Assembly (NCBI RefSeq): GCF_000021565.1
Contig: NC_012440.1
Coordinates: 1,070,210 to 1,134,209 of the forward strand
DNA from: Persephonella marina EX-H1
Lineage (GTDB): Bacteria > Aquificota > Aquificia > Aquificales > Hydrogenothermaceae
Reading direction: 5' to 3'
Length of the DNA stretch: 64,000 nucleotides
Part shown: in pieces, positions 1,182 to 40,020 of the stretch
Layout of the letters: every line of letters starts with the position of its first letter
How positions within the stretch are numbered: position 1 is the stretch's first letter
The notes under the pieces: model-generated
The model's input: only the letters and a program-made list of their open reading frames with translations
Databases searched by the model: none
Told to the model about the DNA's origin: nothing
Program-made: the position numbers and the translations under genes

Positions 1182-3152
1182 GTGGACAACAGAGATAGAG
1201 ATGACCTGATAGAAAAGACGATTGTTATATCACCGCAAAGGGTTATAGAGCTAAAGGATCTTCTTTTTGTTTGCGATAGAAATGAAAGCTGTGTTCTTTA
1301 CTCTGAGGACAGGTATATAACGGACAGAGATATAGAAGAGATATACATATTAGACAGCTCAGGAAATAAATTTAAACTTATTGATCTTGTCAATGAACTT
1401 ATAGAAAGGGAAGAAGATCTTTACAGCTATGACTTTTCTCTCGTTTCCGGAGATGAGAGCATACCTGTTTACCTCTCAGTATCAACAGTTCATCTCAAAG
1501 ATGGGTATAAAGGTGCTGTTGTTACTGTAAGGGATATAACATCTTTGAGGAAAACTGAAGAGAAGCTTAACCTTTATGAAAAGATATTCCATGAAGCCCA
1601 GGATGGGATTGCCGTTATAGACAGTAAAGGAAGGTATGTTATACAGAATGTATCCCACAGGAATCTTACAGGATATTCTGATGAAGAGATAATAGGAAAA
1701 ACTCCTGCGATCTCCATCGGTGAGAAAAAGTTAAAACAGATCATAAGGAAGGTGAATGAACAGGGAAAGTTCAGAGGGATAGTGGATCTGAAAAGAAAAG
1801 ATGGGACAGTTTTAAATATTGATCTCTCCGTCTTTCCTGTAAAAGACAGGAAAGGGAAAACTATATACTACGTTGGTATAAAAAGGGATATAACAGAGAT
1901 AATAAAAAGAGAAAAGGAGCTTGAGAATCTGAATAGAAAACTTGAAAAACAGCTTTTTACAGACTCATTAACATCGCTACCAAACAGACTTAAGCTGATT
2001 GAGGATATAAAGGGATCATCAGATCCAAAACTTGCCATATTCAATATCAACAGCTTCAAAGAGATAAATGATTTTTACGGTCAGGAGATAGGGGATGAGC
2101 TTCTAAAAAAGGTTGGCAGAAAGATAAACTCCTACGTTGATAAAGACAGGTACACAGTTTACAAACTTTCAGGTGATGAGTTTGCCATCCTTTCAGATAG
2201 AGATATTACTATGGATCAGTTCTCTAACACTATTCAGAGGATAATAGAAAACATCCATGAAGAGATATTTATATGCGGTGAGACAGAGATACATATATAT
2301 ATGACAGCAGGCTATGCCTCAGGGAAGGAAAGACTTATCAGCAGAGCAGATATGGCACTGAAATACGCAAAACAGCATAAAAAAAGTATTCAGCTTTACT
2401 CTAAAAACCTTGGTATAGAAAAGCAGTACATCCACAACATAACAGTTATGAAAAAGATAAAAGAGGCATTAAGAAAGAATATGGTTACCGTTCATTTCCA
2501 GCCTGTTTATAACAACAGAACAGGACTTGTTGAAAGTTACGAAACACTTGTAAGACTTAAAGATACCGATGGGTCTGAGATACTCCCTGAAACATTCTTT
2601 GATATCGCTAAAAAAAGTCCCGTCTATCCAGAGATAACAGCAAAAATAATTGAGACGATATTCAAAAAGATAAAGGATATCCCCCATAAATTCAGTTTAA
2701 ATCTATCTGTGAGGGATATAGAGAACAGGGAGCTTACAGAAAGGATATTTGAGTTTCTGAAAAGTTATAGAAATGATATTATCTTTGAAATTCTTGAGTC
2801 TGAGAGTATAAGAAATTACAGAACTGTATCCCAGTTCATAAAAGAGGTTAAAAAACTTGGAGCCCAGATAGCCATAGATGATTTTGGAAGTGGATACTCA
2901 AATTTTGAGTTTATACTAAAGCTTGATGTTGATTATATAAAGTTAGACTCCTCACTTATAAAAGATATAGACAGAAATATAAACTCACAGATCATAGTTG
3001 AGACTATAGTTGGATTTGCAAAAAGATTGGGTAAGAAAACCGTTGCTGAGCATGTCCATTCTGAAGAGGTGTTTGAGGTTGTAAAAGAGCTTGATGTTGA
3101 TTTCTCTCAGGGTTTTTACTTCGGAAAACCATCTCCTAACATTTTGATATGA
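1182..3152 (+). CDS. PAS-PAS-GGDEF-EAL c-di-GMP signalling protein
   Basis: This 656-residue protein has two PAS-like sensor domains (about 18-125 and 128-235), a GGDEF domain (about 255-405) and an EAL domain (about 415-656). There is no signal peptide or membrane segment, so it is a cytoplasmic sensor. The GGDEF signature is altered to SGDEF, a variant that is active in some cyclases. The EAL signature reads ETL, but other metal and catalytic positions appear present: NLS, the DDFG motif (IDDFGSGYSN), KLD and an AE pair (AEHV). Phosphodiesterase activity is therefore plausible and cyclase activity uncertain. Translation starts at GTG 1182, since no later Met precedes the first PAS domain. 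The 3' end overlaps convergent hisC by 17 bp. Confidence 0.92.
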   Translation: MDNRDRDDLIEKTIVISPQRVIELKDLLFVCDRNESCVLYSEDRYITDRDIEEIYILDSSGNKFKLIDLVNELIEREEDLYSYDFSLVSGDESIPVYLSVSTVHLKDGYKGAVVTVRDITSLRKTEEKLNLYEKIFHEAQDGIAVIDSKGRYVIQNVSHRNLTGYSDEEIIGKTPAISIGEKKLKQIIRKVNEQGKFRGIVDLKRKDGTVLNIDLSVFPVKDRKGKTIYYVGIKRDITEIIKREKELENLNRKLEKQLFTDSLTSLPNRLKLIEDIKGSSDPKLAIFNINSFKEINDFYGQEIGDELLKKVGRKINSYVDKDRYTVYKLSGDEFAILSDRDITMDQFSNTIQRIIENIHEEIFICGETEIHIYMTAGYASGKERLISRADMALKYAKQHKKSIQLYSKNLGIEKQYIHNITVMKKIKEALRKNMVTVHFQPVYNNRTGLVESYETLVRLKDTDGSEILPETFFDIAKKSPVYPEITAKIIETIFKKIKDIPHKFSLNLSVRDIENRELTERIFEFLKSYRNDIIFEILESESIRNYRTVSQFIKEVKKLGAQIAIDDFGSGYSNFEFILKLDVDYIKLDSSLIKDIDRNINSQIIVETIVGFAKRLGKKTVAEHVHSEEVFEVVKELDVDFSQGFYFGKPSPNILI

Positions 3153-10465: not shown

Positions 10466-11758
10466 TCATATAACAACCTTGTTCTTACCTGTTCTTTTGG
10501 CCCTTAACATCTTTTTATCAGCCCTTTCTATAATATCATTAACAGTCTCATTAGGGTGAAGTGTTGCACCTTCAACCCCTACACTTACAGTAACCTTTAT
10601 GGTATTTTTCCCACAGATAATATCTTTCTCCTCTATCTTCTTTCTCAGCTTTTCCATAACCTTAAAGGCATCCCTTTTTTCTGTAAAAGGCATAAAAATG
10701 AGAAACTCCTCCCCACCAAACCTGAATATCAGATCAGACTTTCTAAGACTTTTCTGTAGTATAGAGGAAACCTGTTTTATAACACAGTCTCCAACAAGAT
10801 GTCCATAGCTATCGTTTATCTTTTTAAAATCATCTATATCAAGTAAGGCAATCGAGACAGGCCTGTTTGATATCTTTGATATCTGGTACTGATTGTTAAG
10901 TATAAACTCCATCGGTCTTCTGTTTAGAACACCTGTAAGAGGATCAACATTGGCATCTTCAACACTTCTAACAGCGATCTTTACTGTTAAAAGTGATAAA
11001 AACTGGGCTGAAAGTTTCTGAAGGTTTATATAATCAAACAGAAGATTTATAAAATTTCTCTCCTCAATGCTGTAATAAATATCAATAGCCGTTTTATGTA
11101 TCTTCTCATGAATATCTTTAAGTATGTTAAATTTCTTTTTACTTATATTAAGTACAGTCTCATCCTCTAATAAACGAGAGAACTTACATTTGTTTACATC
11201 AAGCTCAACACTGCTTTCCTTTCTCAGCTTCTTAATATCCTCAATTATCTTGTTCAACCAAACAAGATGTTCCTTAACGTAAAATCTCAGTTCTTCTTCT
11301 GAGTACTTTACAGTCCTTAATTTTTCCCTGATTACAACCTTATCAATCTGGAGAAATGAAAAAAGATAACCGTAAGCAACAGAATTTCTCAAAATATGGT
11401 ATATACCGTCAATCTTTTTTAAGGCATCCTCAGGATTAAAGTTCAGTTCCATAAATCTGGTTTTTATAAATCCGGATAAAACATACTCCATCTTTTCAAG
11501 GTTTGTAAGTGTAGCACTGAAAGGTATTGACATTGAGAAATGGATTTTCCCGAGTATAAATCCCTTTCTTTTAACATTGTTCAGATCCCCCTCTATCCCT
11601 GATAGAAAAGCCTCCATATGGATCTTTTTCAACTTTTCAACATCTGATCTGTCAAAGTATTTCTGCTGATAAGGATTTCTGAGGATTATTGAACATAGAT
11701 AATCAAATCCCTCTGTAAAGATACTTTTTGCAAGTTTTATCTCTAAATTTTCACCCAT
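10466..11758 (-). CDS. Diguanylate cyclase with possible globin-like sensor domain
   Basis: The 430-residue protein ends in an intact GGDEF domain (about 265-430): DPLTGVLNRRP, the active motif RFGGEEF, and an RxxD inhibitory site (RKSD) five residues ahead, so it should make c-di-GMP with product inhibition. The N-terminal ~150 residues are helical; the stretch around LGKIHFSMSIPFS (His73) resembles the IGxxHxxxGIxP segment around the haem-ligating histidine of globin-coupled sensors. A helical linker with several histidines follows. The globin assignment is inference. No membrane segments. The ATG at 11758 has only a distant GGAG. The gene ends one base from the convergent solute-binding protein gene. 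Confidence 0.9.
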   Translation of the reverse strand: MGENLEIKLAKSIFTEGFDYLCSIILRNPYQQKYFDRSDVEKLKKIHMEAFLSGIEGDLNNVKRKGFILGKIHFSMSIPFSATLTNLEKMEYVLSGFIKTRFMELNFNPEDALKKIDGIYHILRNSVAYGYLFSFLQIDKVVIREKLRTVKYSEEELRFYVKEHLVWLNKIIEDIKKLRKESSVELDVNKCKFSRLLEDETVLNISKKKFNILKDIHEKIHKTAIDIYYSIEERNFINLLFDYINLQKLSAQFLSLLTVKIAVRSVEDANVDPLTGVLNRRPMEFILNNQYQISKISNRPVSIALLDIDDFKKINDSYGHLVGDCVIKQVSSILQKSLRKSDLIFRFGGEEFLIFMPFTEKRDAFKVMEKLRKKIEEKDIICGKNTIKVTVSVGVEGATLHPNETVNDIIERADKKMLRAKRTGKNKVVI

Positions 11759-11841: not shown

Positions 11842-12306
11842 TTATTTACTTTTTTTTATCTTTTTCAGATCTGTTAATATTTTTGTTATTTTATCCACCA
11901 TTTCCGGATCTACATAGTTCATAACCTCCCCCGCAAGCCTATCTTTCATGTTGTATATGATGTAAGCAGCCTTTACAGGATCTGTCATTTTAGATATCTT
12001 CTCTCCTGCCATCTCAGGATCCATCTTCTCAAAAACTTTTGCAAGTTTTTTATATCTGTCTTCCTCAGCTTTTTTCAAAATTTTCTTTATATTTTCCTCC
12101 CTTTTTATAAGGGCTTTCTCCCTTTCCTCAATCTGTTTCAGAATCTTCTTTTTTTCTTCAAGAAGTTTCCTTATCTCTTCCCTCAACTTTGAGAGTCTTT
12201 CTATCTCTTTCTGTATTTCTATCTTTTCAGCCTGTTGATTATCAACAGAATACGCCGTTAAGAAAAGAGAAAAACTAACGCCTGTTATTATAAGAAGTCT
12301 CAGCAA
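11842..12306 (-). CDS. MotE-like / MgtE-N-domain protein
   Basis: A 154-residue protein: an N-terminal hydrophobic signal or anchor (about residues 2-18), a long highly charged coiled coil (about 25-85) and a C-terminal segment (FEKMDPEMAGEKISKMTDPV) typical of the MgtE intracellular-N domain found in MotE, which stabilises the flagellar motor protein MotC in other bacteria. An ATG at 12342 would add twelve Arg-rich residues, but an AAGGAG seven bases before TTG 12306 decides for the TTG. It overlaps the 3' end of the FliJ-like gene by 32 bp, in line with a flagellar role. Assignment rests on domain shape and neighbour. Confidence 0.75.
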   Translation of the reverse strand: MLRLLIITGVSFSLFLTAYSVDNQQAEKIEIQKEIERLSKLREEIRKLLEEKKKILKQIEEREKALIKREENIKKILKKAEEDRYKKLAKVFEKMDPEMAGEKISKMTDPVKAAYIIYNMKDRLAGEVMNYVDPEMVDKITKILTDLKKIKKSK

Positions 12307-12676
12307 TCTGTATCTCCTTCTTAAGTTCCTTCTTAAGAGCATCTCTGTTGATATTCTTAATATACTTCTCTACGCTTTTTTTCTCGGCATTTTTCAGTTT
12401 AATCTGAAGTTTAACAGCTTCCTTTTTCATCTCAAGTACTTTTATCTTTTCATCTATTGATAATATCTCCTTCTCAAGTTTTTTCAGGTACTCAATCTTA
12501 TAATGAAGTGTGTTGACATCACTGAAACTCTCATTTTTTGTTCTTTCATACCGCTCATAGAGCATGTTTCTTCCAGAGATAAGATCAGCAAGCTCCCTAT
12601 CAATCTGATCAATCTTTGTTCTGTAAACCCTGATATCAAACTTTAACTTCTTTTTAAAAAGCTCTAATATTTTCAT
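12275..12676 (-). CDS. fliJ: FliJ-like flagellar export chaperone
   Basis: This 133-residue protein is almost entirely charged coiled coil, starting FKKKLKFDIRVYRTKIDQID with a tyrosine-containing repeat and a lysine-rich end. This fits FliJ, the small coiled-coil protein that links the flagellar export ATPase FliI to the export gate. FliJ sequences are weakly conserved, so the call depends on length (about 140 in the family), coiled-coil character and the MotE-like gene directly downstream, which overlaps it. A CXX-free, soluble protein with no signal peptide. AAGG lies six bases before the ATG. It starts eleven bases after the AhpD-like gene. Alternative: an unrelated coiled-coil protein. 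Confidence 0.65.
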   Translation of the reverse strand: MKILELFKKKLKFDIRVYRTKIDQIDRELADLISGRNMLYERYERTKNESFSDVNTLHYKIEYLKKLEKEILSIDEKIKVLEMKKEAVKLQIKLKNAEKKSVEKYIKNINRDALKKELKKEIQIAETSYNNRR

Positions 12677-30727: not shown

Positions 30728-30837
30728 TGACAATTTCTGACACCTTAACTGACAAAATTTGTCACATCTTATTTCTGCAGTAAATTTAAAATCTTTCTCT
30801 TGATTAAAGCTGACAACGTTTTGGTTTGTTAATGTCA
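30728..30837 (+). promoter_or_regulatory. Cluster of TGACA/TGTCA half-sites upstream of pilin promoter
   Basis: TGACA occurs at 30728, 30738, 30750 and 30811, and TGTCA at 30760 and 30833. Those at 30750 and 30760 form the 15-bp palindrome TGACAAAATTTGTCA. The cluster lies about 25-135 bases before the sigma-54 promoter, the place for an enhancer-binding activator such as PilR. Binding is inferred. Confidence 0.6.
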
Positions 30838-30862: not shown

Positions 30863-30878
30863 TGGCACAGGACTTGCA
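30863..30878 (+). promoter_or_regulatory. Sigma-54 (RpoN) promoter of the major pilin gene
   Basis: TGGCAC-AGGAC-TTGCA matches the -24/-12 consensus without mismatch, with the GG (30864) and GC (30876) exactly twelve bases apart. It is 37 bases before the pilin ATG. Confidence 0.92.
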
Positions 30879-30914: not shown

Positions 30915-31337
30915 ATGAAAGACTTAAGGGAAAGACGTAAAAAAGAAGGCGGTTTTACACTGATTGAGCTGCTGATCGTTATCGCTATCATCGCTATTCT
31001 GGCATCTATAGCAATTCCTCAGTATTTAAAATACCAGCAAAAAGCTAAAGTTTCTTCATATGCTGAGCCAATAGCAAGAGGTTGTGTTATGGATATGGTT
31101 ACTGCGTGTATAGAAGATCCAACAAACTATCCTCCAACAAATCTGCCAAACTGTGTAGCAACTGCAGCAACACCCGGAGGAACTGTAAATCAGCAGACTC
31201 TTAACAATGGAACATGTACTAATGGAACTCTAACAGGTGCATCTGCTGTTTATAGATTAGATGGTGTTGCTGATTATGAAGCCAATTGTCAGACTGATGC
31301 AAGTGGAAACATAAAGTGTTCTGTACAGCCAATATAA
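30915..31337 (+). CDS. pilA: Type IV pilin, major-type
   Basis: A 140-residue prepilin. A positively charged 13-residue leader (ending KKEGG) is followed by the mature N-terminus [20 protein letters not shown], with Glu at position 5, the site for prepilin peptidase cleavage and methylation. The mature part, about 127 residues, is small for a pilin and contains several cysteines ([35 protein letters not shown]), which could form disulfides. Polymerises on the inner membrane into type IV pili. GGAGG precedes the ATG by eight bases. It has its own sigma-54 promoter and terminator, so it is a strongly expressed single gene. PilA is a name by role; it could also be a pseudopilin. Confidence 0.9.
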
Positions 31338-31400: not shown

Positions 31401-31553
31401 GTTCAGACTTATTCATACTACTTCAGAACTCTTTAGATATCTCCTTTAACTCATTACCATCTTTTATTCTTATAAAGATTCTTAATTAATTCAATGTAAT
31501 ATTGGCATAATATTTTCTTAATTTTGTTAATAAATCCTAATAGGGGGGATGTG

Positions 31554-31973
31554 ATGGTTCATAACAAGAATGGATTTACAATTGTTGAACTTTTAATAGT
31601 TGTAGCAATACTCGCTATTCTTTCCTCAATGTCTCTGGTTATGTATCAGAAATACAGAAATAAATCTTTCGTTGCATCCCATCTTTTACCTATAGCTGAT
31701 GGCTGTTCTAAGGAAATAGTAGCATACTGTATAGGGTTAAATGTTGAAACACCTACAGTTATAAATGTTTCTTCTTTATCTCTGAGTAATTGTAAAAATG
31801 TAACCCTTCCAGATTACAATCTTACAGTTAATGTTACAGGTAGCTTTGTATGTAATCCAGGTGGCAATGTCTCAGGTGGGACTGTAGATGCTGAATCCGA
31901 TAAAATACCGGAGTACAAAGCTGAATGTAATCTTTTAGCTGAAGGAATTAAATGTTCTGTTGTTGAAAAATAA
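31554..31973 (+). CDS. Second type IV pilin, paralogue of the first
   Basis: A 139-residue prepilin starting at ATG 31554, preceded by AGGGGGG; a farther upstream start (31524) is not supported by a ribosome-binding site. The short leader ends NKNG and the mature end is FTIVELLIVVAILAILSSM, again with Glu5. The segment LPIADGCSKEIVAYC parallels [15 protein letters not shown] of the preceding pilin, so the two probably arose by tandem duplication and diverged. Four later cysteines are present. A much weaker promoter lies upstream (an imperfect TGGCAT-N5-TTTCT near 31503). It may be a minor or alternative pilin subunit. It faces the minor-pilin operon and ends two bases before its 3' end. Confidence 0.88.
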   Translation: MVHNKNGFTIVELLIVVAILAILSSMSLVMYQKYRNKSFVASHLLPIADGCSKEIVAYCIGLNVETPTVINVSSLSLSNCKNVTLPDYNLTVNVTGSFVCNPGGNVSGGTVDAESDKIPEYKAECNLLAEGIKCSVVEK

Positions 31974-31975
31974 AG

Positions 31976-32488
31976 CTAAGGTGTTGTTGGAGGGGATGTT
32001 CTGTATATAAAATCTATCTCAGCCCTTTCTGGTCTGTCAATTCTTGAAGAAACAACCCTTATAGCATAAATATCATATCCACCTGATGTTGTATCTTTAT
32101 GAATAATAAAAGCTTCAATCTGATAATCACCTATGTTTGAATAACTTCCCAGATCAAATCTGTCAACAGGCTTACCATCAGGACATTCAAGTCTGTTAAG
32201 GTCAGGATTCCATGTCACCCTGTAGCATGGACATAACGTAGTCTCACCAACGCATATCATTCTTTCCGCATCGCTTTCCATATACTGATCTGTGGATAGT
32301 CTGTTCATAATATAGTTTGCTGCACCTTTAGCCGCCTCAAGTGCGGATGTGTATCTTTCTTCTATGACTGAGGTTTTTTTTCCGTATATCATAAATGTCA
32401 TCAATGCCGCAACGATAGCCATTGCTACAAATCCGAGAAGCATCGTTGTTATCAGAGCCATTCCCTTTTCATTTCCTGCCTTCATCAC
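31976..32488 (-). CDS. PilX-like minor pilin / membrane-anchored pilus protein
   Basis: A 170-residue protein. The N-terminus NEKGMALITTMLLGFVAMAIV is a class III-like signal of PilX type: charged leader, glycine, then a hydrophobic helix without the usual Glu5. The rest is a small globular domain with cysteines (CVGETTLCPC, LECPDG). PilX-type proteins belong to the minor pilin complex that primes pilus assembly and carries PilY1. It is the last gene of the minus-strand operon pilY1-fimT-pilV-pilW-this gene, six bases after pilW. Function rests on position and N-terminal shape. Confidence 0.78.
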   Translation of the reverse strand: MMKAGNEKGMALITTMLLGFVAMAIVAALMTFMIYGKKTSVIEERYTSALEAAKGAANYIMNRLSTDQYMESDAERMICVGETTLCPCYRVTWNPDLNRLECPDGKPVDRFDLGSYSNIGDYQIEAFIIHKDTTSGGYDIYAIRVVSSRIDRPERAEIDFIYRTSPPTTP

Positions 32489-32494
32489 GAACCT

Positions 32495-33448
32495 CTACTT
32501 GATTATTGACATCGGTTTTACAGATATCTTTATAACCTTCCATCTGTAATGTATAAAATCTGAGGAGCCAGGAAGGTAAAGTTTCATCCCGTTTACCTGT
32601 ATGTAATTTCCGTTGGAGTCAGTGCTGTAATTTTTAAACTCATAGTCTGGATTAAATCCACCTTCCTGTATGAGTAGATAAACATTTATCCTCTTAAGCT
32701 GGAGTCTCAGATCATTCGCTGGAATAGAATTATCAACTATCTGGTCTGTAAGATCAACGATATTATCATCATCTATATCCAGATCTATAGTGAATTTAAA
32801 GTCTGCAACACAGGATAAAAGGGGGTTTCCTCCTGTAGCGTTATTGACTTTTCTAAGTAGGTTGTATGTTTGGGGATGACAGTGAGAGGGAAGGTTGGTA
32901 TTACTAAGATAATAAACTATTTCAGAGCATGTACCACCGCATCCTGTAGACGCTGGATCAAAAGGAAATCCTACAAGTATCCCATCGGATGGGCATAATC
33001 CGTCGTTTACAACTCCCGCCACAAAGCCTTCATTATCAACAAATACCAGATTATCATTTGGAGCTTCTAATTCTGCATGAACTGGATCATTTCCTGCATT
33101 GTTGTTACATAAAACCCATCCTATAGTTGTGTTATTCGTATTATTCATTGTGGATCTTATCAAAAGATCCTTACCATCATTTACAGATTCTAAAATAAGG
33201 TAGTCGGATCCAAGTGTAAGAGGTTTCCCTATTCCATAGCCGACATGCTCAAGATCAAGTCTCAGAAGCTCAAGGCCTACAATCTTTTCCATCTGAAGCT
33301 CAACAGATTCAGACTCCCCTTTCATACTTTTAAATATGCTCACGTAGGTAAAATAGGCTGCACTCAGTATCAGAGATACTATAAATAGTGTTATTAGAAC
33401 CTCTATTATTGAGTAACCTTTATCTCTGTCAGTTATAAATCTCATCAC
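32495..33448 (-). CDS. pilW: PilW-like minor pilin
   Basis: The 317-residue protein has a charged leader (FITDRDKG) and mature N-terminus YSIIEVLITLFIVSLILSAAY, with Glu5, marking a type IV prepilin. It is longer than major pilins, like PilW, and contains paired cysteines (GCGGTCSEI) and an aspartate-rich stretch (DLDIDDDNIVDLTDQIVDN) that could bind calcium. The start overlaps the end of pilV by four bases. PilW-type minor pilins form the tip complex with PilV, PilX and PilY1. Identification rests on the prepilin signal, length and gene order. Confidence 0.82.
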   Translation of the reverse strand: MMRFITDRDKGYSIIEVLITLFIVSLILSAAYFTYVSIFKSMKGESESVELQMEKIVGLELLRLDLEHVGYGIGKPLTLGSDYLILESVNDGKDLLIRSTMNNTNNTTIGWVLCNNNAGNDPVHAELEAPNDNLVFVDNEGFVAGVVNDGLCPSDGILVGFPFDPASTGCGGTCSEIVYYLSNTNLPSHCHPQTYNLLRKVNNATGGNPLLSCVADFKFTIDLDIDDDNIVDLTDQIVDNSIPANDLRLQLKRINVYLLIQEGGFNPDYEFKNYSTDSNGNYIQVNGMKLYLPGSSDFIHYRWKVIKISVKPMSIIK

Positions 33449-33927
33449 TCTTCCCTTGCTATCACAGTAGATATTGTATGTGTTATCTTGTTTCCTGTAT
33501 GGAAATCTTTATAATCTGTGCATATTGTAACTGTTACACGGAATATATCTGCTGTTGGATCAGGCTGGTTTACAATCACCTGTTTGCCAAACTTTATATT
33601 CACATTCCTTACCTGTCTTGTTATTACACATTCAGGAACTGTTGGCTCTGTTGAGCATACAGGACAGTCAGTTCTGTTTACAACATCTTCAAAGCTACCA
33701 TCGTTATTTATATCGTATATTCTGTTCGGATCCATATTTCTTATAAACTCAATCTCATCCTGCGCGATCTTAACTGTTTCATCTTTAATAAGCTTCTGAA
33801 AATTTATCTTGTATGCCACTGTGAATCCCTGGAGCATAAAGATAAGAACAAGTGCAAAGATAAAAAGAGAGACAAGAGCCTCTACAAGCGTATATCCTTT
33901 CTTATTTAACAACACAGTCTGTACCAT
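33445..33927 (-). CDS. pilV: PilV-like minor pilin
   Basis: A 160-residue prepilin: leader ending LNKKG, mature YTLVEALVSLFIFALVLIF with Glu5. PilV/GspI-type proteins characteristically carry TLVEAL at this position. It contains CPVCSTEPTVPEC, a cysteine cluster that could bind metal or form disulfides. It overlaps fimT by 26 bp at its start and pilW by four at its end, so it is translationally coupled within the minor-pilin operon. Probably part of the pilus tip complex; no enzymatic function expected. Confidence 0.83.
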   Translation of the reverse strand: MVQTVLLNKKGYTLVEALVSLFIFALVLIFMLQGFTVAYKINFQKLIKDETVKIAQDEIEFIRNMDPNRIYDINNDGSFEDVVNRTDCPVCSTEPTVPECVITRQVRNVNIKFGKQVIVNQPDPTADIFRVTVTICTDYKDFHTGNKITHTISTVIAREE

Positions 33928-34351
33928 TCCATTCTCCCATCTTGACCCTTATATAACTTATGGAGATACAGTCAAAGACCGCACCCTTTTTATCTCCTGT
34001 GAAGTATATACTTCCATTTGTGAATGTCCCTCTTTTATCAATGGTAATTGTTACTGGATTGTAACTGCTTTTATTCAGATTTACACATTTTATAACTGAG
34101 GATGTGGCCTCATCTATAAGACAGGCTGATTTATCAGCTGGATTAAGACTGAAGATAAGCCTTCTTTTCTCTCCAAAAGCGGTCATCCTTCCTTCCTGAA
34201 GCAGTCCATACATCCTCCTTATATCCGTTTCAATCTTGTTTGCTTCTATCTTATTCTTAAAAGGAACAACGGCAATTGCAGCCAGTATTGCAAACAGTAC
34301 TATCACCAGAAGCAGTTCAACTATTGTAAAACCTTTTATCTTTCTAACCAT
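33902..34351 (-). CDS. fimT: FimT/GspH-like minor pilin
   Basis: The 149-residue product starts MVRKIKG, then FTIVELLLVIVLFAILAAIAV with Glu5, followed by a GspH/FimT-type domain (RRMYGLLQEGRMTAFGEKRRL, then a CxIDEATSS-like segment). FimT-type minor pilins participate in pilus priming and, in some species, DNA uptake. GGAGGAG lies ten bases before the ATG. It overlaps pilY1 by 16 bp upstream and pilV by 26 bp downstream. Confidence 0.82.
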   Translation of the reverse strand: MVRKIKGFTIVELLLVIVLFAILAAIAVVPFKNKIEANKIETDIRRMYGLLQEGRMTAFGEKRRLIFSLNPADKSACLIDEATSSVIKCVNLNKSSYNPVTITIDKRGTFTNGSIYFTGDKKGAVFDCISISYIRVKMGEWNGTDCVVK

Positions 34352-37300
34352 AAAAGTATCTCTCCTCCAGGTGTGTAAGCCGTTTGTGGACTCTGACCCC
34401 CGACAACAAGATGTTTTTTCCAGCCTGTATTTCCTGAGGTTGAAAAATCACCTGTTGTAGATTCTGGTTTATTTTCCTGATTTATTCTACCACCGGTATC
34501 AGAGTAAAGTAATGTATAACTTGCTGTTATGTAGTATCCAGCATCACAGTTGTAAGTTACTGGAGCTCCTGTAGCACAGTTGAGATGCCATATTCTGTGT
34601 CTTCCTCCAACACTACATATATCAGCGTTAGGTTGTGATGTTGCGAAAAATACAGCTCCAAAGTTTGTAACTGAAGGGCTTGCGAGATTTTTCTCTTTCA
34701 TATAGCTACCAGAGCCCAGATCCAGTTCTCTGTACCATCCAACCCTTGAGGATGTAATGTAGTTACAAACACCTGTTGCTGATCCTGAAACATTATAGAC
34801 AGAACCTATAACCGAACAGCCTGAAGTATCACAGTTTAAAGGAATTCCATATATTCTGTTTGGTTTTGTAGTTTGAGGGTTATCATCTTTATAAAACCAT
34901 TTTCCGGTTCCAAAAAAGATATAGGGAACATTGAAACAGTCCATAAAAGAGACTGACGTTACTACAGGAAGCATTCCTCCAGAGGATATTGATGAGGTTA
35001 TATCTGTCCATGAATATCCACCACTGGTTTTGATAACAAGGATTCCTCCTGTTTGTGTAGAGATAGAACTGCCTTTTGTATATCCCAGGAACAGGTAATC
35101 AGTATTTCCATCTTCATCAAGATCCAGGCCTTCGTACTGTAATCTTCCTCCAAATGCTTCTGTGATGCCTGTGTCTATCACAGTATCAATACTTCCTGTT
35201 TCCGCGTCAAGTATAAACAACTTAAGGCTTTGATTTGATATACCTTTGTAGTCTGTAGGTCCTGATGCAAAAAGAACTTTTGCTTTCTGGGCGTTTCCGT
35301 TGAGAACTCTTATTACACCTGGTCCAGAAAAGCTAAATCCAAGATCTTTATCAGAAAACTCCCATAGGAGTTTTGGATTTAATGGATCTGTAATATCAAG
35401 TGCAAAATAAGAGGATCTACCAACGCAGGATGAGGATGCAGGATCGGGACAGGTGTCAGAAGGAGGATTTACACAGTTTGTTCCGCTACAACCACATGCT
35501 CCTCCCAGTCTCATTCCTCCGATCAGTATTATCCTGTCAGGTTTTTCATTTAGATCTGTAATATCTTTATCAAGGTATATGATGTAAGGTGATTGATCTA
35601 TGTAATAAATGTGACAGTAATCAGGATCAGCCAGATATCTCAAGTATGGAAGAGCATTTTTAGGTATGAAAGCCCACAGCTCTTTCCCAAGACCTTTTGT
35701 AGTATAGTCTGTTATGAGTTCTGCAACCTGATATTTTGTAAGTAATCTTTTAATCTTTCCAGCCTCAAAAGCATGTAGCATACCATCATTGGCTCCCACA
35801 AAAACTATACTTCCTCTGTATAAGCTTGATTCATACTGAACGATCGCTGGAGATGAATGCATTATATCTCCCAGCTTCCATATCCTGTCAGCTGTTCCGT
35901 CAAAAAATGTTCTGTTGCGACATTTAAAGTCAGATTCTCCCCTTATATACCTTATAAGGTTATCTATCTTTTCGTTATCATTATTGCCTGGAATACACGA
36001 TGGGATTAAAGATGCATTTCCCAGTAAATTTGCAAACGAGGATTTGTTTGCAGGTTCAAAACTTACGATACTGTTTGAGGAAACAGCTGCGAATATGTTT
36101 CTCTGCAATCCATCTGTTAAAGCAAGTTCTTCACCGGCTTCCCAGAGGTAATGGGTTTCTTCTATTGAAGGAATAGGATTGGGGTCGTATTCTGCAGGTA
36201 TAGGATCACCAGCAATATCGGTTCTCAGTTCACCTTTAAGCTCGCTCTCATAGAGATTTGCAATAATGTTTCCATCAGGATCTGTATCAAACATCAGTAT
36301 AAAATCGTAGTAATCATTAACAGTAATCGGTTCACCACTTGCTTTTTTCTGATCGTAAGATGGGTTATAAACATCAAGAATGATTCTTCCGCTGTTATCT
36401 ACCGTATTGTCTCTAACATTCTGTGCGTATTTTGTGTTTAAAAACCAGTATGTATATAAAGATCCTATCCATGTAAGGTCTATATCTCCAAATGTTTTTT
36501 TCGGATAGCTTGCGGCATGGTTGATTATAGAACCTTTACCTTTACCAGTTGTTTGGGCAGCTATAACGGTTCCTGAGGTTGCTCCTTTCTTGATCTCTCC
36601 AAATATCTCTCTCAGTGCGGCTTCTATCTCTGCACCACTGTTTGCCTGATAAAATGTGTCTGGCACACCATCATTATCCTTATCCCATTCTTCACAGCAT
36701 GGAAAATATGTTCCGTTAGGATCACAGTGAGGTCTCGGAAATTCTACATATCTACTATTTGTTCCAAGTCCTGGAAGATCATAGGGGTAGTTATCATTAC
36801 TGCAGGTATCGTCAAAACTGCCGTGAGCAGCAACAGTTTTCATTGAGTAAATTCCTTCCACATCCGTATTGAATATGTATAGTGAGAAGACTTTTGCTTT
36901 TTGATCTCCTGAGAGATCAGATCTCAGATCTGTGGTGTGTATAGTGTTCGCTGGGCTATCTGGATCTAAATCACCATTCCATAAACCATCAGATATAAGC
37001 AGAACATAGTTATTTCTACAACTTGCCGGAACAACATCACCACTTTCAAGAACTTCGTAGTATGGATCTTTTTCTGTTCCAAGACCTATAAATCCGGTAT
37101 TACTTTCAAACCAGTGATCGTTACTCTGCTTCAGATAATCATAGGCCTCCCATACTGCTTCACCGGTTGGTGTCCCGTAATATGGAATCTCATTTTGTAA
37201 AGCAGTTATTAACGCATTTAGATCATTCTGGTAAAAAGCGTATCTTATTTCACCTTCTCTTATGTTGTTTCCCCCGTATACCATAAATGTTATTCTTACA

Positions 37301-38040
37301 TCATCAAAACTTTCCTGAATTACGCCTGTATAATCATCTTTAGGTATCTTAACGTTAACAGCCCTTCCATCTGTAATCTGTCCCAGGGCACATGATCTAT
37401 TTCCATCAAATATGTACAGGTAGTCATTTTTATCCTGGTATGAAGGTGTTGTTCTGCTGTAATTTTCAGGTTCTATATATATAATGCAGTCAAGATTTGA
37501 ATCATAAACGCCTCTTCTTGAACCCTGTGATCTTAAGATACAGTCTGTGTCTGTACATGTGGCTTTTCCACCTATTAATGCTTTAAGTGCAGCATCAATT
37601 CTTGTTGTTGTTGCCCAGTTTAAGAAGTTTCCACTCAGACATCCTATATTTCCGGCACCATTATTTCCAGAACAATCGCAGGAGCTTTTTATCCAGTATC
37701 CGTCTGCTGTGCTGTACTCGTAACATGCATTACTATCAAAAAGGCCGTAATACACTGTTGTATTATCATAGTTACTTATGACCACGGTGTTTCGTGAGAC
37801 ACACTCAGCCACATAACTATCGTAGTAGTATGGATACCCCCAATTACATGGATAATATGCTGGGAACTGCATACTTCCTGAATAATCCATAACCATGACA
37901 ACATTAGGTTTTACTTCAGTTTTGAGGAATGGGGGAATTGTACAGTAATTGGTCATATTACCGTAGGATAGTGATACGAAACTTAGAAATATTACTAAAA
38001 GAGCACTAATTTTCTTTATATATATCATGATCTTCTTCAT
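34336..38040 (-). CDS. pilY1: PilY1-like pilus tip adhesin / mechanosensor
   Basis: A 1234-residue secreted protein. Start chosen at ATG 38040 because GGAGGAAGAGA precedes it; the 22-residue upstream extension is not supported. Signal peptide about residues 1-27. A von Willebrand A domain follows, with the metal-binding DYSGSM (Asp52, Ser54, Ser56) near the N-terminus. The C-terminal half (about 650-1200) is the PilC/PilY1 beta-propeller, with GANDGMLHAFEAG. Two EF-hand-like calcium loops, DKDNDGVPD (near 452) and DLDEDGNTD (near 972), are visible. In Pseudomonas PilY1 sits at the pilus tip with minor pilins and signals surface contact. It is co-operonic with the minor pilins and a two-component system. 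Confidence 0.93.
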   Translation of the reverse strand: MKKIMIYIKKISALLVIFLSFVSLSYGNMTNYCTIPPFLKTEVKPNVVMVMDYSGSMQFPAYYPCNWGYPYYYDSYVAECVSRNTVVISNYDNTTVYYGLFDSNACYEYSTADGYWIKSSCDCSGNNGAGNIGCLSGNFLNWATTTRIDAALKALIGGKATCTDTDCILRSQGSRRGVYDSNLDCIIYIEPENYSRTTPSYQDKNDYLYIFDGNRSCALGQITDGRAVNVKIPKDDYTGVIQESFDDVRITFMVYGGNNIREGEIRYAFYQNDLNALITALQNEIPYYGTPTGEAVWEAYDYLKQSNDHWFESNTGFIGLGTEKDPYYEVLESGDVVPASCRNNYVLLISDGLWNGDLDPDSPANTIHTTDLRSDLSGDQKAKVFSLYIFNTDVEGIYSMKTVAAHGSFDDTCSNDNYPYDLPGLGTNSRYVEFPRPHCDPNGTYFPCCEEWDKDNDGVPDTFYQANSGAEIEAALREIFGEIKKGATSGTVIAAQTTGKGKGSIINHAASYPKKTFGDIDLTWIGSLYTYWFLNTKYAQNVRDNTVDNSGRIILDVYNPSYDQKKASGEPITVNDYYDFILMFDTDPDGNIIANLYESELKGELRTDIAGDPIPAEYDPNPIPSIEETHYLWEAGEELALTDGLQRNIFAAVSSNSIVSFEPANKSSFANLLGNASLIPSCIPGNNDNEKIDNLIRYIRGESDFKCRNRTFFDGTADRIWKLGDIMHSSPAIVQYESSLYRGSIVFVGANDGMLHAFEAGKIKRLLTKYQVAELITDYTTKGLGKELWAFIPKNALPYLRYLADPDYCHIYYIDQSPYIIYLDKDITDLNEKPDRIILIGGMRLGGACGCSGTNCVNPPSDTCPDPASSSCVGRSSYFALDITDPLNPKLLWEFSDKDLGFSFSGPGVIRVLNGNAQKAKVLFASGPTDYKGISNQSLKLFILDAETGSIDTVIDTGITEAFGGRLQYEGLDLDEDGNTDYLFLGYTKGSSISTQTGGILVIKTSGGYSWTDITSSISSGGMLPVVTSVSFMDCFNVPYIFFGTGKWFYKDDNPQTTKPNRIYGIPLNCDTSGCSVIGSVYNVSGSATGVCNYITSSRVGWYRELDLGSGSYMKEKNLASPSVTNFGAVFFATSQPNADICSVGGRHRIWHLNCATGAPVTYNCDAGYYITASYTLLYSDTGGRINQENKPESTTGDFSTSGNTGWKKHLVVGGQSPQTAYTPGGEILLWLER

Positions 38041-38344
38041 TCTCTTCCTCCACAGGAATAATAATGAATCTGCCTGATTCTTTCTGGATGAGATAGATCT
38101 TTTCACCCTGTTTAAGTTCCTTTTTTCCTACTATTTCAGCGTCATTTAGGTTTATGATCACTCTGTTTGGAAATATGAAGCAGACAATATAGTTGTCTCT
38201 TTTTTTTAGGATCTTTATTGGTCCTATCGCTTTATCTCCTTTTTCTATATGTGAGGCTACATAAGGAGGGATGGAAACTATTTTTCCCTGTGAATAACTG
38301 TAAAACAGGAATAGGACTGAAAGTACAATATGCAGATATTTCAT
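38006..38344 (-). CDS. Small secreted protein preceding PilY1
   Basis: The 112-residue protein has an N-terminal signal peptide (about residues 1-20, LHIVLSVLFLFYSYSQG) and a beta-rich mature part (DNYIVCFIFPNRVIINLNDAE) with an acidic tail. I do not recognise a family. It resembles small pilus-accessory lipoproteins or periplasmic proteins such as those linked to minor-pilin operons, but without a lipobox. It overlaps pilY1 by 35 bp, which couples their translation, and follows the kinase gene at 73 bases. A pilus function is inferred from position only. Confidence 0.7.
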   Translation of the reverse strand: MKYLHIVLSVLFLFYSYSQGKIVSIPPYVASHIEKGDKAIGPIKILKKRDNYIVCFIFPNRVIINLNDAEIVGKKELKQGEKIYLIQKESGRFIIIPVEEENEEDHDIYKEN

Positions 38345-38416
38345 CTGTTACATCCCCTTGTAATATATTTATCCATATATTTTAATTAATTCCTTTAGTA
38401 TAAAAAAATCGTGAGT

Positions 38417-39379
38417 TTATCTTTTCAGCTTTATTACAGTTAAAAACTCTTTTTTCGCTTTTGTTTTTATCTCTCCTCCATATCTGGATAATAAAAACTC
38501 AGAGATTTTCAGACCAACTCCAGAACCTTTCTGTATCTCCTGTATATCATTTTTTATAAACAGATAACAGATCTTTCTATCTGTACACATCCTTATATGT
38601 ATCTTACTTTTTGAGTATTTGATACTGTTTTCAATTATTGTGTGAAATATATTTTCCGCATCTACAGGATCAATTTTTATATAGAAATCTTTAAGATGAA
38701 GGATTACTTTCCTGTCCAAAAGATGATCTGAGAAAAGATCAAGTGTGTTTAGTATTACATCCTTTATGTTTATTATTCTTAGACTTCTTTTCCTTTCTGA
38801 TATCTTTTTTAATATCTGAAGACTGCTTTTAAAGTCTGTCTCAATAAGCTGGTAAGCTTTTTCAAGCCTCTCTACAGGCTTTATATTACATTTTGATTTT
38901 ATAAGTTCTATATTCAGTTTCTGTGAGGACAGAAAGTTTCCAAGTTTATGTGTTATCGTAAGTAAAAATATCTCAAGAAGTTTCCTGTTCTCTTCCTTTT
39001 CCTGTATATGTCTTATTATTGTTATGTACATAACAAAAAGAAGTGTAACTGTTAAAACAGCTTCCCACACAAGAAGGTTAAGACCGAATGTTTTTATCTT
39101 TTCTATCTTGTAGTTTTTGTCAAGAAGTATGTAGTTTCCACCTAAGAATGTTACAATCTCGTATCTTTCTGGATCAAAGCTGCTGTCGATGGTGAAATAT
39201 CTGGGAAGTTTTAAGAAAGGTTTTTCAGTCAGTATAGCCTTATAAAGATGAGCCTCTTTGTAAAGCTGATACTCAAGGTTTTTTTTGAAAAAGATGATAC
39301 TGATTCCGTTTATTACTGAAAAACCAATTGTAAGCACAATACTGAAAATGATAAGTATCTTCTTCTCAAATGATATCAA
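38417..39379 (-). CDS. Membrane sensor histidine kinase
   Basis: A 320-residue protein with two transmembrane helices (about 7-30 and 103-122) enclosing a ~70-residue periplasmic sensor region. The cytoplasmic half has a dimerisation/phosphoacceptor helix, THKLGNFLSSQKL with His144 the likely phosphorylation site though the usual E-L-R-T is replaced by K-L-G-N. The ATPase domain has an N box (IENSIKYS) and a G box (GSGVGLKISEFLL). Its start overlaps the response-regulator stop by four bases. Downstream genes are a secreted protein, PilY1 and minor pilins, so it may sense pilus or envelope state; that link is inference. Confidence 0.9.
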   Translation of the reverse strand: MISFEKKILIIFSIVLTIGFSVINGISIIFFKKNLEYQLYKEAHLYKAILTEKPFLKLPRYFTIDSSFDPERYEIVTFLGGNYILLDKNYKIEKIKTFGLNLLVWEAVLTVTLLFVMYITIIRHIQEKEENRKLLEIFLLTITHKLGNFLSSQKLNIELIKSKCNIKPVERLEKAYQLIETDFKSSLQILKKISERKRSLRIINIKDVILNTLDLFSDHLLDRKVILHLKDFYIKIDPVDAENIFHTIIENSIKYSKSKIHIRMCTDRKICYLFIKNDIQEIQKGSGVGLKISEFLLSRYGGEIKTKAKKEFLTVIKLKR

Positions 39380-40020
39380 TTTAGTTTATAACCTCTTCCT
39401 TTGTAGGTAACGATAGCATCCTTAGGCAGGATTTTTCTCAGTTCCTTAATGTAAGTTCTGACTATCTCATCTCCAACAGGTTTGTCTCCCCATACATAGG
39501 CGAGTATTCTCTCAGTAGGAACGATGGATCCTCTGTTTTTTACTAAAAGGTAAAGAAGTTCCCATGCTGTTCTTGATAGTTTTACCTCTTCTCCTTTTTT
39601 GTAAACCATCTGGTTGTCTATATCTATAGTTATATCCCCTATCTTTACACAGTACTCCCTGTGTTTTCTTTTTGACAGGGCTTTAAGTCTGAGTAAAAGC
39701 TCTTTAGGATCAAAAGGTTTTGTTAAGTAGTCATCAGCACCAAGGTTAAAGCAGACCTCTTTATCCCTTATATCTGATTTTGCGGTAAGTATAAGAACTG
39801 GTACATCAACACCTCTATTTCTTATATCCCTTAATATCTCCTCCCCTTTTCTGTACTTCAGCATAAGATCAAGAACTATAACATCAAACTGGTTTAGATC
39901 AAATATATCATCAATCTCCCTGTCATCCTGTATCCATTTAACAGTTATGTTATTCTCCTTCAGATACTCTTCTATAGTCTCCCCTAATAATGGATCGTCT
40001 TCCACCAGAAGTACATGCAT
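39376..40020 (-). CDS. OmpR-family response regulator
   Basis: The 214-residue protein has a receiver domain (about 1-115; LVEDDP, phosphoacceptor Asp51 in VIVLDLML, TAKSD, TKPFDPKE) and a winged-helix DNA-binding domain (about 130-214; LSRTAWELLYLLVKNRG, VWGDKPVGDEIVRTYIKELR). It heads the minus-strand operon that continues with the kinase, a secreted protein, PilY1 and the minor pilins. AGGA lies seven bases before the ATG. It is not an NtrC-type activator, so it cannot be the PilR expected at the sigma-54 pilin promoter. Probable target is its own operon, inferred. Confidence 0.94.
   Translation of the reverse strand: MHVLLVEDDPLLGETIEEYLKENNITVKWIQDDREIDDIFDLNQFDVIVLDLMLKYRKGEEILRDIRNRGVDVPVLILTAKSDIRDKEVCFNLGADDYLTKPFDPKELLLRLKALSKRKHREYCVKIGDITIDIDNQMVYKKGEEVKLSRTAWELLYLLVKNRGSIVPTERILAYVWGDKPVGDEIVRTYIKELRKILPKDAIVTYKGRGYKLN

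Follow-up and report, generated by a model that had tools for sequence, protein, structure and literature searches.

A two-component pair conserved beside the pilY1-minor pilin genes of Persephonella marina and a putative direct-repeat regulatory box

Within a stretch of 64,000 nucleotides of Persephonella marina EX-H1 (NC_012440.1, positions 1,070,210 to 1,134,209; hereafter the window), a run of eight minus-strand genes at 31976-40020 encodes a response regulator (RR), a sensor kinase (HK), a small secreted protein (SEC), PilY1 and four minor pilins. The RR-HK pair is repeatedly found beside pilY1 in Aquificota, and a direct-repeat box ahead of the SEC-pilY1 unit tracks the presence of the HK; through this box, the RR would probably control the genes of the pilus tip. 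The host genome is complete (1.98 Mb in two contigs) and is coded G000 in the comparisons below. All eight genes named by an initial annotation of the window were found, and their names hold when judged by Pfam domains, motifs, relatives and position. Read from the RR gene, the junctions are -4 bp (RR/HK), +72 (HK/SEC), -35 (SEC/PilY1), -16 (PilY1/FimT), -26 (FimT/PilV), -4 (PilV/PilW) and +6 (PilW/PilX), so that neighbours overlap or almost touch with the sole exception of the HK-SEC gap. The genes and overlaps described initially as an eight-gene operon are therefore present, but this gap and the conserved box within it speak against one simple transcription unit. As the box directly follows the HK stop codon, a second promoter is expected within the run, which is probably two transcription units (Table 1).

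Table 1. Features of the gene run and of the convergent pilin genes (window positions)
Feature	Position	Strand	Basis
RR, OmpR/PhoB-type, 214 aa	39376..40020	-	Response_reg and Trans_reg_C; receiver residues
HK, membrane sensor kinase, two transmembrane segments	38417..39379	-	26-member alignment; CpxA profile and fold match; hydropathy
Putative RR box CTCACGATTTTTTTATAC	38398..38415	-	just past HK stop codon; second half-site degenerate, 9/14
SEC	38006..38344	-	assigned by position to PilY1-associated OB-fold family; divergent
PilY1, vWA with MIDAS and beta-propeller with Ca loop	34336..38040	-	T4P_PilY1; 3hx6 match; motifs
FimT/FimU-like minor pilin	33902..34351	-	N_methyl; orthologues
PilV-like minor pilin	33445..33927	-	N_methyl; orthologues
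PilW-like minor pilin	32495..33448	-	N_methyl; orthologues
PilX-like minor pilin	31976..32488	-	position and relatives 33-44% identical; Pfam pilin match absent
pilA1, major pilin, convergent with operon	30915..31337	+	N_methyl E 6e-10
pilA2, second pilin	31524..31973	+	N_methyl E 9e-8
Sigma54-type promoter TGGCACAGGACTTGCA of pilA1	30863..30878	+	TGACA/TGTCA repeats ahead at about 30728-30837

Conservation of the linkage was surveyed by running profiles of the HK and of PilY1 against 136 Aquificota genomes and reading about 40 loci. The pair, or the HK alone on short contigs, adjoins pilY1 in 27 genomes from 11 genera (a count by coordinates that includes fragments), with the HK divergent from pilY1 in G054. 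These genomes cover two families of the window's order together with Desulfurobacteriaceae (L127, G131, G132, G135) of another order, and the kept gene order indicates that the linkage, which the initial annotation had proposed to check across Hydrogenothermaceae, is not accidental. In seven genera (g4, g5, g11, g13, g14, g15, g18) the pair lies away from pilY1, with unrelated neighbours where these were read. Because the unlinked Hydrogenothermaceae (G043; g4/g5) nest among linked members in a tree of RR and HK, whose deep nodes are weakly supported, the linkage has probably been lost several times. In G043 and G073 the pair still stands beside ispD as in the window, and pilY1 is elsewhere with a strong box ahead of it. 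Relatives whose pilus genes are not accompanied by an adjacent pair, which had been proposed as a sign of accidental linkage, thus do occur, but the box still precedes their pilY1 unit, and so linkage and control are separate questions.

Two further observations concern the distribution of these genes. A longer type of PilY1 (about 1600 aa) occurs at the ispD locus (L061 9364-14160; L089 7103-11971), beside the RR-HK cassette in G023 and in place of the cassette in G012, with neither box nor SEC, which resembles replacement of a tip module. In addition, RR-HK relatives occur outside the window's phylum in metagenome-assembled genomes of Desulfurellaceae (L126, L128, L130), and in L130 a PilY1 gene with a box-like site (11/14) upstream lies about 6 kb from them.

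A repeated TTCAC motif was seen upstream of the SEC/pilY1 unit when sequences from linked and unlinked genomes were read alike. The consensus TTCACGA-N4-TTCACGA, with an 11-bp period, was scored over 14 positions in the 500 bp upstream of pilY1 with a threshold of 11, and was fixed on a first batch of genomes before the second was seen. The box was found in 38/42 genomes with the HK and in 1/15 without it (57 genomes; Fisher p=5e-9), and in the unseen batch in 18/18 and 1/12, respectively (p=2e-7), although the genomes are related and many of those without the HK come from one other family, so that the p-values overstate independence and serve as guides rather than probabilities. The threshold score was reached by only 7/900 Markov-resampled upstream sequences. 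Among the four failures with the HK, G000, G035 and G041 carry a Persephonella form of the site, CTCACGATTTTTTTATA, at the same place, and G007 carries a weak site; G135 was unscorable by the common rule, and its SEC upstream sequence scored 8. Relatives of the same family that have no RR-HK (G012, G006 and G063, the last of 74% completeness) also have no box. Although in the window the site lies directly 3' of the HK stop codon, between HK and SEC, it is not a by-product of the HK coding sequence, since in unlinked genomes it lies apart from the HK gene.

The signal of the box resides in its position and in exact matches. Exact matches fall at the SEC-pilY1 site in 5/6 linked genomes, and three of the four in the scanned unlinked genomes precede pilA. 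The 15-mer YTCACGATTTTTTYA has exact matches at only two places in the P. marina genome. The second of these (G000:C2:1394124-1394138; L144) stands about 90 bp before a gene for a secreted protein of 251 aa with four CxxCH haem motifs, and the product of the gene on its other side has eleven of these; among the matches inspected in other genomes, none was placed ahead of a multihaem cytochrome gene in this way.

Direct repeats with an 11-bp period are the usual sites of OmpR/PhoB-type regulators. The RR carries Response_reg (E 4e-25) and Trans_reg_C (E 6e-17) domains in Pfam and belongs to the OmpR/PhoB family, and it scored far under every cut-off among the NCBIfam equivalogs listed. Taken with the distribution of the box, its architecture makes it likely that the RR binds this site, and activation is the probable mode of action rather than repression. 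Binding by another transcription factor, with RR-HK a mere neighbour, is an improbable alternative: it would account for the RR gene having no clear box, and binding by the RR is itself a prediction, but the box tracks the HK through 57 genomes, including joint absence within the same family, and its period is typical of OmpR/PhoB-type sites.

The predicted reach of the RR also extends to the major pilin, as it may switch pilA in some genera. The box occurs in reverse orientation 85-110 bp before pilA in G001, G009, G010, G013, G019 and G044, whereas in G000, G041, G035, G015, G025 and G012 the pilA start is preceded at about 55 bp by a sigma54-like site, with TGACA/TGTCA repeats further up; in G018 and G031 neither is clear. 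The major pilin therefore seems, from these upstream sequences, to have come under different regulators in different lineages, with the box retained at the tip genes, and pilA1 of the window appears to be under separate control by some sigma54 activator. Nine strong sigma54-activator matches are found in the genome, but in a scan of eight proteins no NCBIfam equivalog cut-off was reached, and PilR could not be picked out among them. Perfect CTGACA..TGTCAG sites failed to mark pilA1.

The predicted target genes have the features of a type IV pilus tip. PilY1 matches T4P_PilY1 (PF05567) over the cut-off (E 8e-13), and its likely start is the ATG at 38040 rather than the GTG at 38106. The MIDAS, which belongs to an N-terminal vWA domain that only part of the family has, and the two calcium loops described initially are both there (MIDAS D52-YSGS; loops DKDNDGVPD at 453 and DLDEDGNTD at 973), with D52, S54 and S56 almost invariant among 13 relatives and the second loop aligning with the calcium-loop region of the Pseudomonas aeruginosa PilY1 structure 3hx6. 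The FimT-, PilV- and PilW-like proteins carry the N-methylation motif, and Pfam found none in the PilX-like protein. A retractable pilus is plausible, as the genome encodes two PilT-family ATPases that score over the cut-off. SEC goes with pilY1 and not with RR-HK, as it precedes pilY1 in many unlinked genomes as well as in linked ones. Most members of its family have C-x-G plus a later cysteine, and the window copy is without these cysteines; no sequence family could be assigned to SEC, and a canonical relative (L092) was modelled as an OB fold with CusF/SilF as its nearest, weak match (best E 1e-3).

The RR receiver residues E7, D8, D9, D51, T79 and K101 are invariant across 11 sequences, and the protein is thus expected to be phosphorylated by something. 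As for the HK, Pfam returned a HATPase_c match only, below threshold, and the best profile match and the top fold match were both CpxA. Two hydrophobic segments enclose a periplasmic part of about 60 residues, with strands at 62-87 in the structural model, which resembles CpxA in being a sensor of two transmembrane segments with DHp and ATPase domains (mean pLDDT 86; the pTM of 0.51 leaves the domain arrangement uncertain). The divergent H box claimed by the initial annotation is real and reads H144-K145-L-G-N148. Across 26 family sequences, H144, G147, N148, N251, N277, D278, G287 and G289 are invariant, but position 145, next to the phospho-accepting histidine, is lysine in 21 and arginine in five, and acidic in none. 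The ATP lid is nearly absent, as D278 to G287 spans 8-10 residues compared to about 25 in CpxA. Of the HisKA hallmarks, the phospho-accepting histidine is thus present in 26/26 sequences, and the acid beside it and a full ATP lid (D box to G2 box) are missing.

In the HisKA kinases CrdS, HK1190, HK4262 and HK853, the acid following the histidine (H+1) is needed for kinase activity only and an asparagine or threonine at H+4 for phosphatase activity only, as judged by mutagenesis that covered no lysine or arginine at H+1 (PMC3510030). Because the kinase-essential acid is replaced and the phosphatase-essential N148 is invariant, the divergent H box is more suggestive of a sensor of the phosphatase type than of a classical kinase, and these residues make it somewhat more probable than an even chance that the HK acts mainly as a phosphatase. 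The phosphate of the RR would then come from elsewhere, such as acetyl phosphate or another kinase. That the HK is instead an active kinase, relying on a different base and a remodelled ATP site, has a considerable chance of being right, though short of even, since the invariance of H144, N251, D278 and the glycines implies that selection keeps the histidine and the core of the nucleotide site; the near loss of the lid and the need for the H+1 acid in all four studied kinases (PMC3510030) argue against it.

These findings bear on the surface-contact circuit proposed by the initial annotation, in which a signal from PilY1 and the minor pilins would activate a classical kinase with cyclic di-GMP (c-di-GMP) as output. 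The functional tie of RR-HK to PilY1 and the minor pilins stands, being backed by the gene order and the kept box, and the c-di-GMP output is unsupported. Over the first 12 kb of the window, where the initial annotation counted three genes for c-di-GMP, two were found (PAS-GGDEF-EAL at 1182-3152; GGDEF at 10466-11758), and the box is near neither. As a whole, the proposal is very unlikely. It is helped by the MIDAS and calcium loops of PilY1 and by the response of FimS-AlgR when minor pilins and PilY1 are lost (PMC5979040), but all 26 HKs have K/R in place of the kinase-essential acid, and a contact between HK and PilY1 is without sequence evidence. Beside the GGDEF gene, short proteins at 11842-12676 with weak FliG_N and FliJ matches possibly mark a flagellar neighbourhood.

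The reading preferred here is a two-component circuit dedicated to the tip of the type IV pilus, in which the OmpR-type RR would bind TTCACGA-N4-TTCACGA and switch the unit SEC-pilY1-fimT-pilV-pilW-pilX. The HK, lying in the inner membrane with a small periplasmic part, would set RR phosphorylation, mostly as a phosphatase; it may respond to the condition of the pilus-tip complex, in feedback of the kind reported for FimS-AlgR, or to a general envelope or environmental cue. Several observations weigh against this reading. The window's own box scores only 9/14, under the threshold, and G061, the sole exception among genomes without a detected HK (78% complete), has the box. A genome-wide count of the box with one mismatch allowed was not above a reversed-pattern control, and autoregulation was looked for with no clear box found ahead of the RR gene. 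Boxes before two lipoprotein-like genes in G010 (G010:C1:1482920, 1662663; L136, L140) may mark further RR targets. Several near-complete genomes, mainly of genus g11, have the HK with no PilY1 detected, and so the pair probably has other targets. Moreover, conservation of the periplasmic HK part is poor, and in g5 this part is shortened, which makes direct contact with PilY1 less plausible.

The last two features would suit a pair that senses a general condition (temperature, redox, metabolite or envelope state) and merely sets the level of tip-gene expression without pilus feedback, as would the wide retention of RR-HK beside unrelated housekeeping genes. This explanation is a serious one, falling a little below an even chance, but the pair recurs beside pilY1 across 11 genera, a sign that its main shared target is the tip genes, and tip feedback has a precedent in FimS-AlgR (PMC5979040). 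Feedback from the pilus tip or surface as the HK input is a tentative suggestion, less likely than not. The fullest form of the dedicated circuit, in which a lid-less, mainly phosphatase-type HK of Aquificota and some neighbours would report pilus-tip state to an OmpR-type RR that binds its box ahead of the tip genes, and of pilA in some genera, as an independently evolved counterpart of FimS-AlgR, is on the unlikely side when all of its parts are taken together. The analysis also provides a DNA box, a brief list of possible targets and a natural family of kinases in which the motif predicts phosphatase activity but no kinase activity.

A search of the literature found no paper on this circuit. 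AlgR is a regulator of the LytTR type, unlike the RR of the window with its OmpR-type Trans_reg_C domain. The fimU-pilVWXY1Y2E operon of P. aeruginosa is driven by AlgZ(FimS)-AlgR, whose activity goes up when select minor pilins or PilY1 are lost (PMC5979040, PMC8787478). The two systems are alike in placing a minor pilin-PilY1 operon under the control, in the present case predicted, of a two-component pair whose kinase is unorthodox; furthermore, the canonical motif for ATP coordination is absent from FimS (PMC5979040), for which a phosphatase role has been proposed (PMC8787478). They differ in that FimS has four transmembrane segments and no periplasmic domain (PMC5979040), compared to the two segments and small periplasmic part of the window HK, and in that RR-HK is often encoded beside the operon here. 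Similarly, the HsfBA phosphorelay of Myxococcus xanthus directly sets expression of pilY1/minor-pilin clusters (pilY1.1 and pilY1.3), but it consists of a hybrid kinase and an NtrC-like regulator (PMC9109919), which are protein families other than those of RR-HK. The RR shares its domain architecture and the 11-bp direct repeat of its putative box with PhoB/OmpR regulators, and differs from them in box sequence and targets, and the HK departs from CpxA and other HisKA kinases in its H+1 residue and shortened lid. As such, the circuit of the window may work like FimS-AlgR or HsfBA, yet it is a member of neither, because the regulator and kinase families differ. Two-component control of PilY1 and minor-pilin genes is known in Pseudomonas and Myxococcus. 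Its indication here in a deep-branching phylum of thermophiles, through other proteins, suggests that such control of the pilus tip arose more than once.

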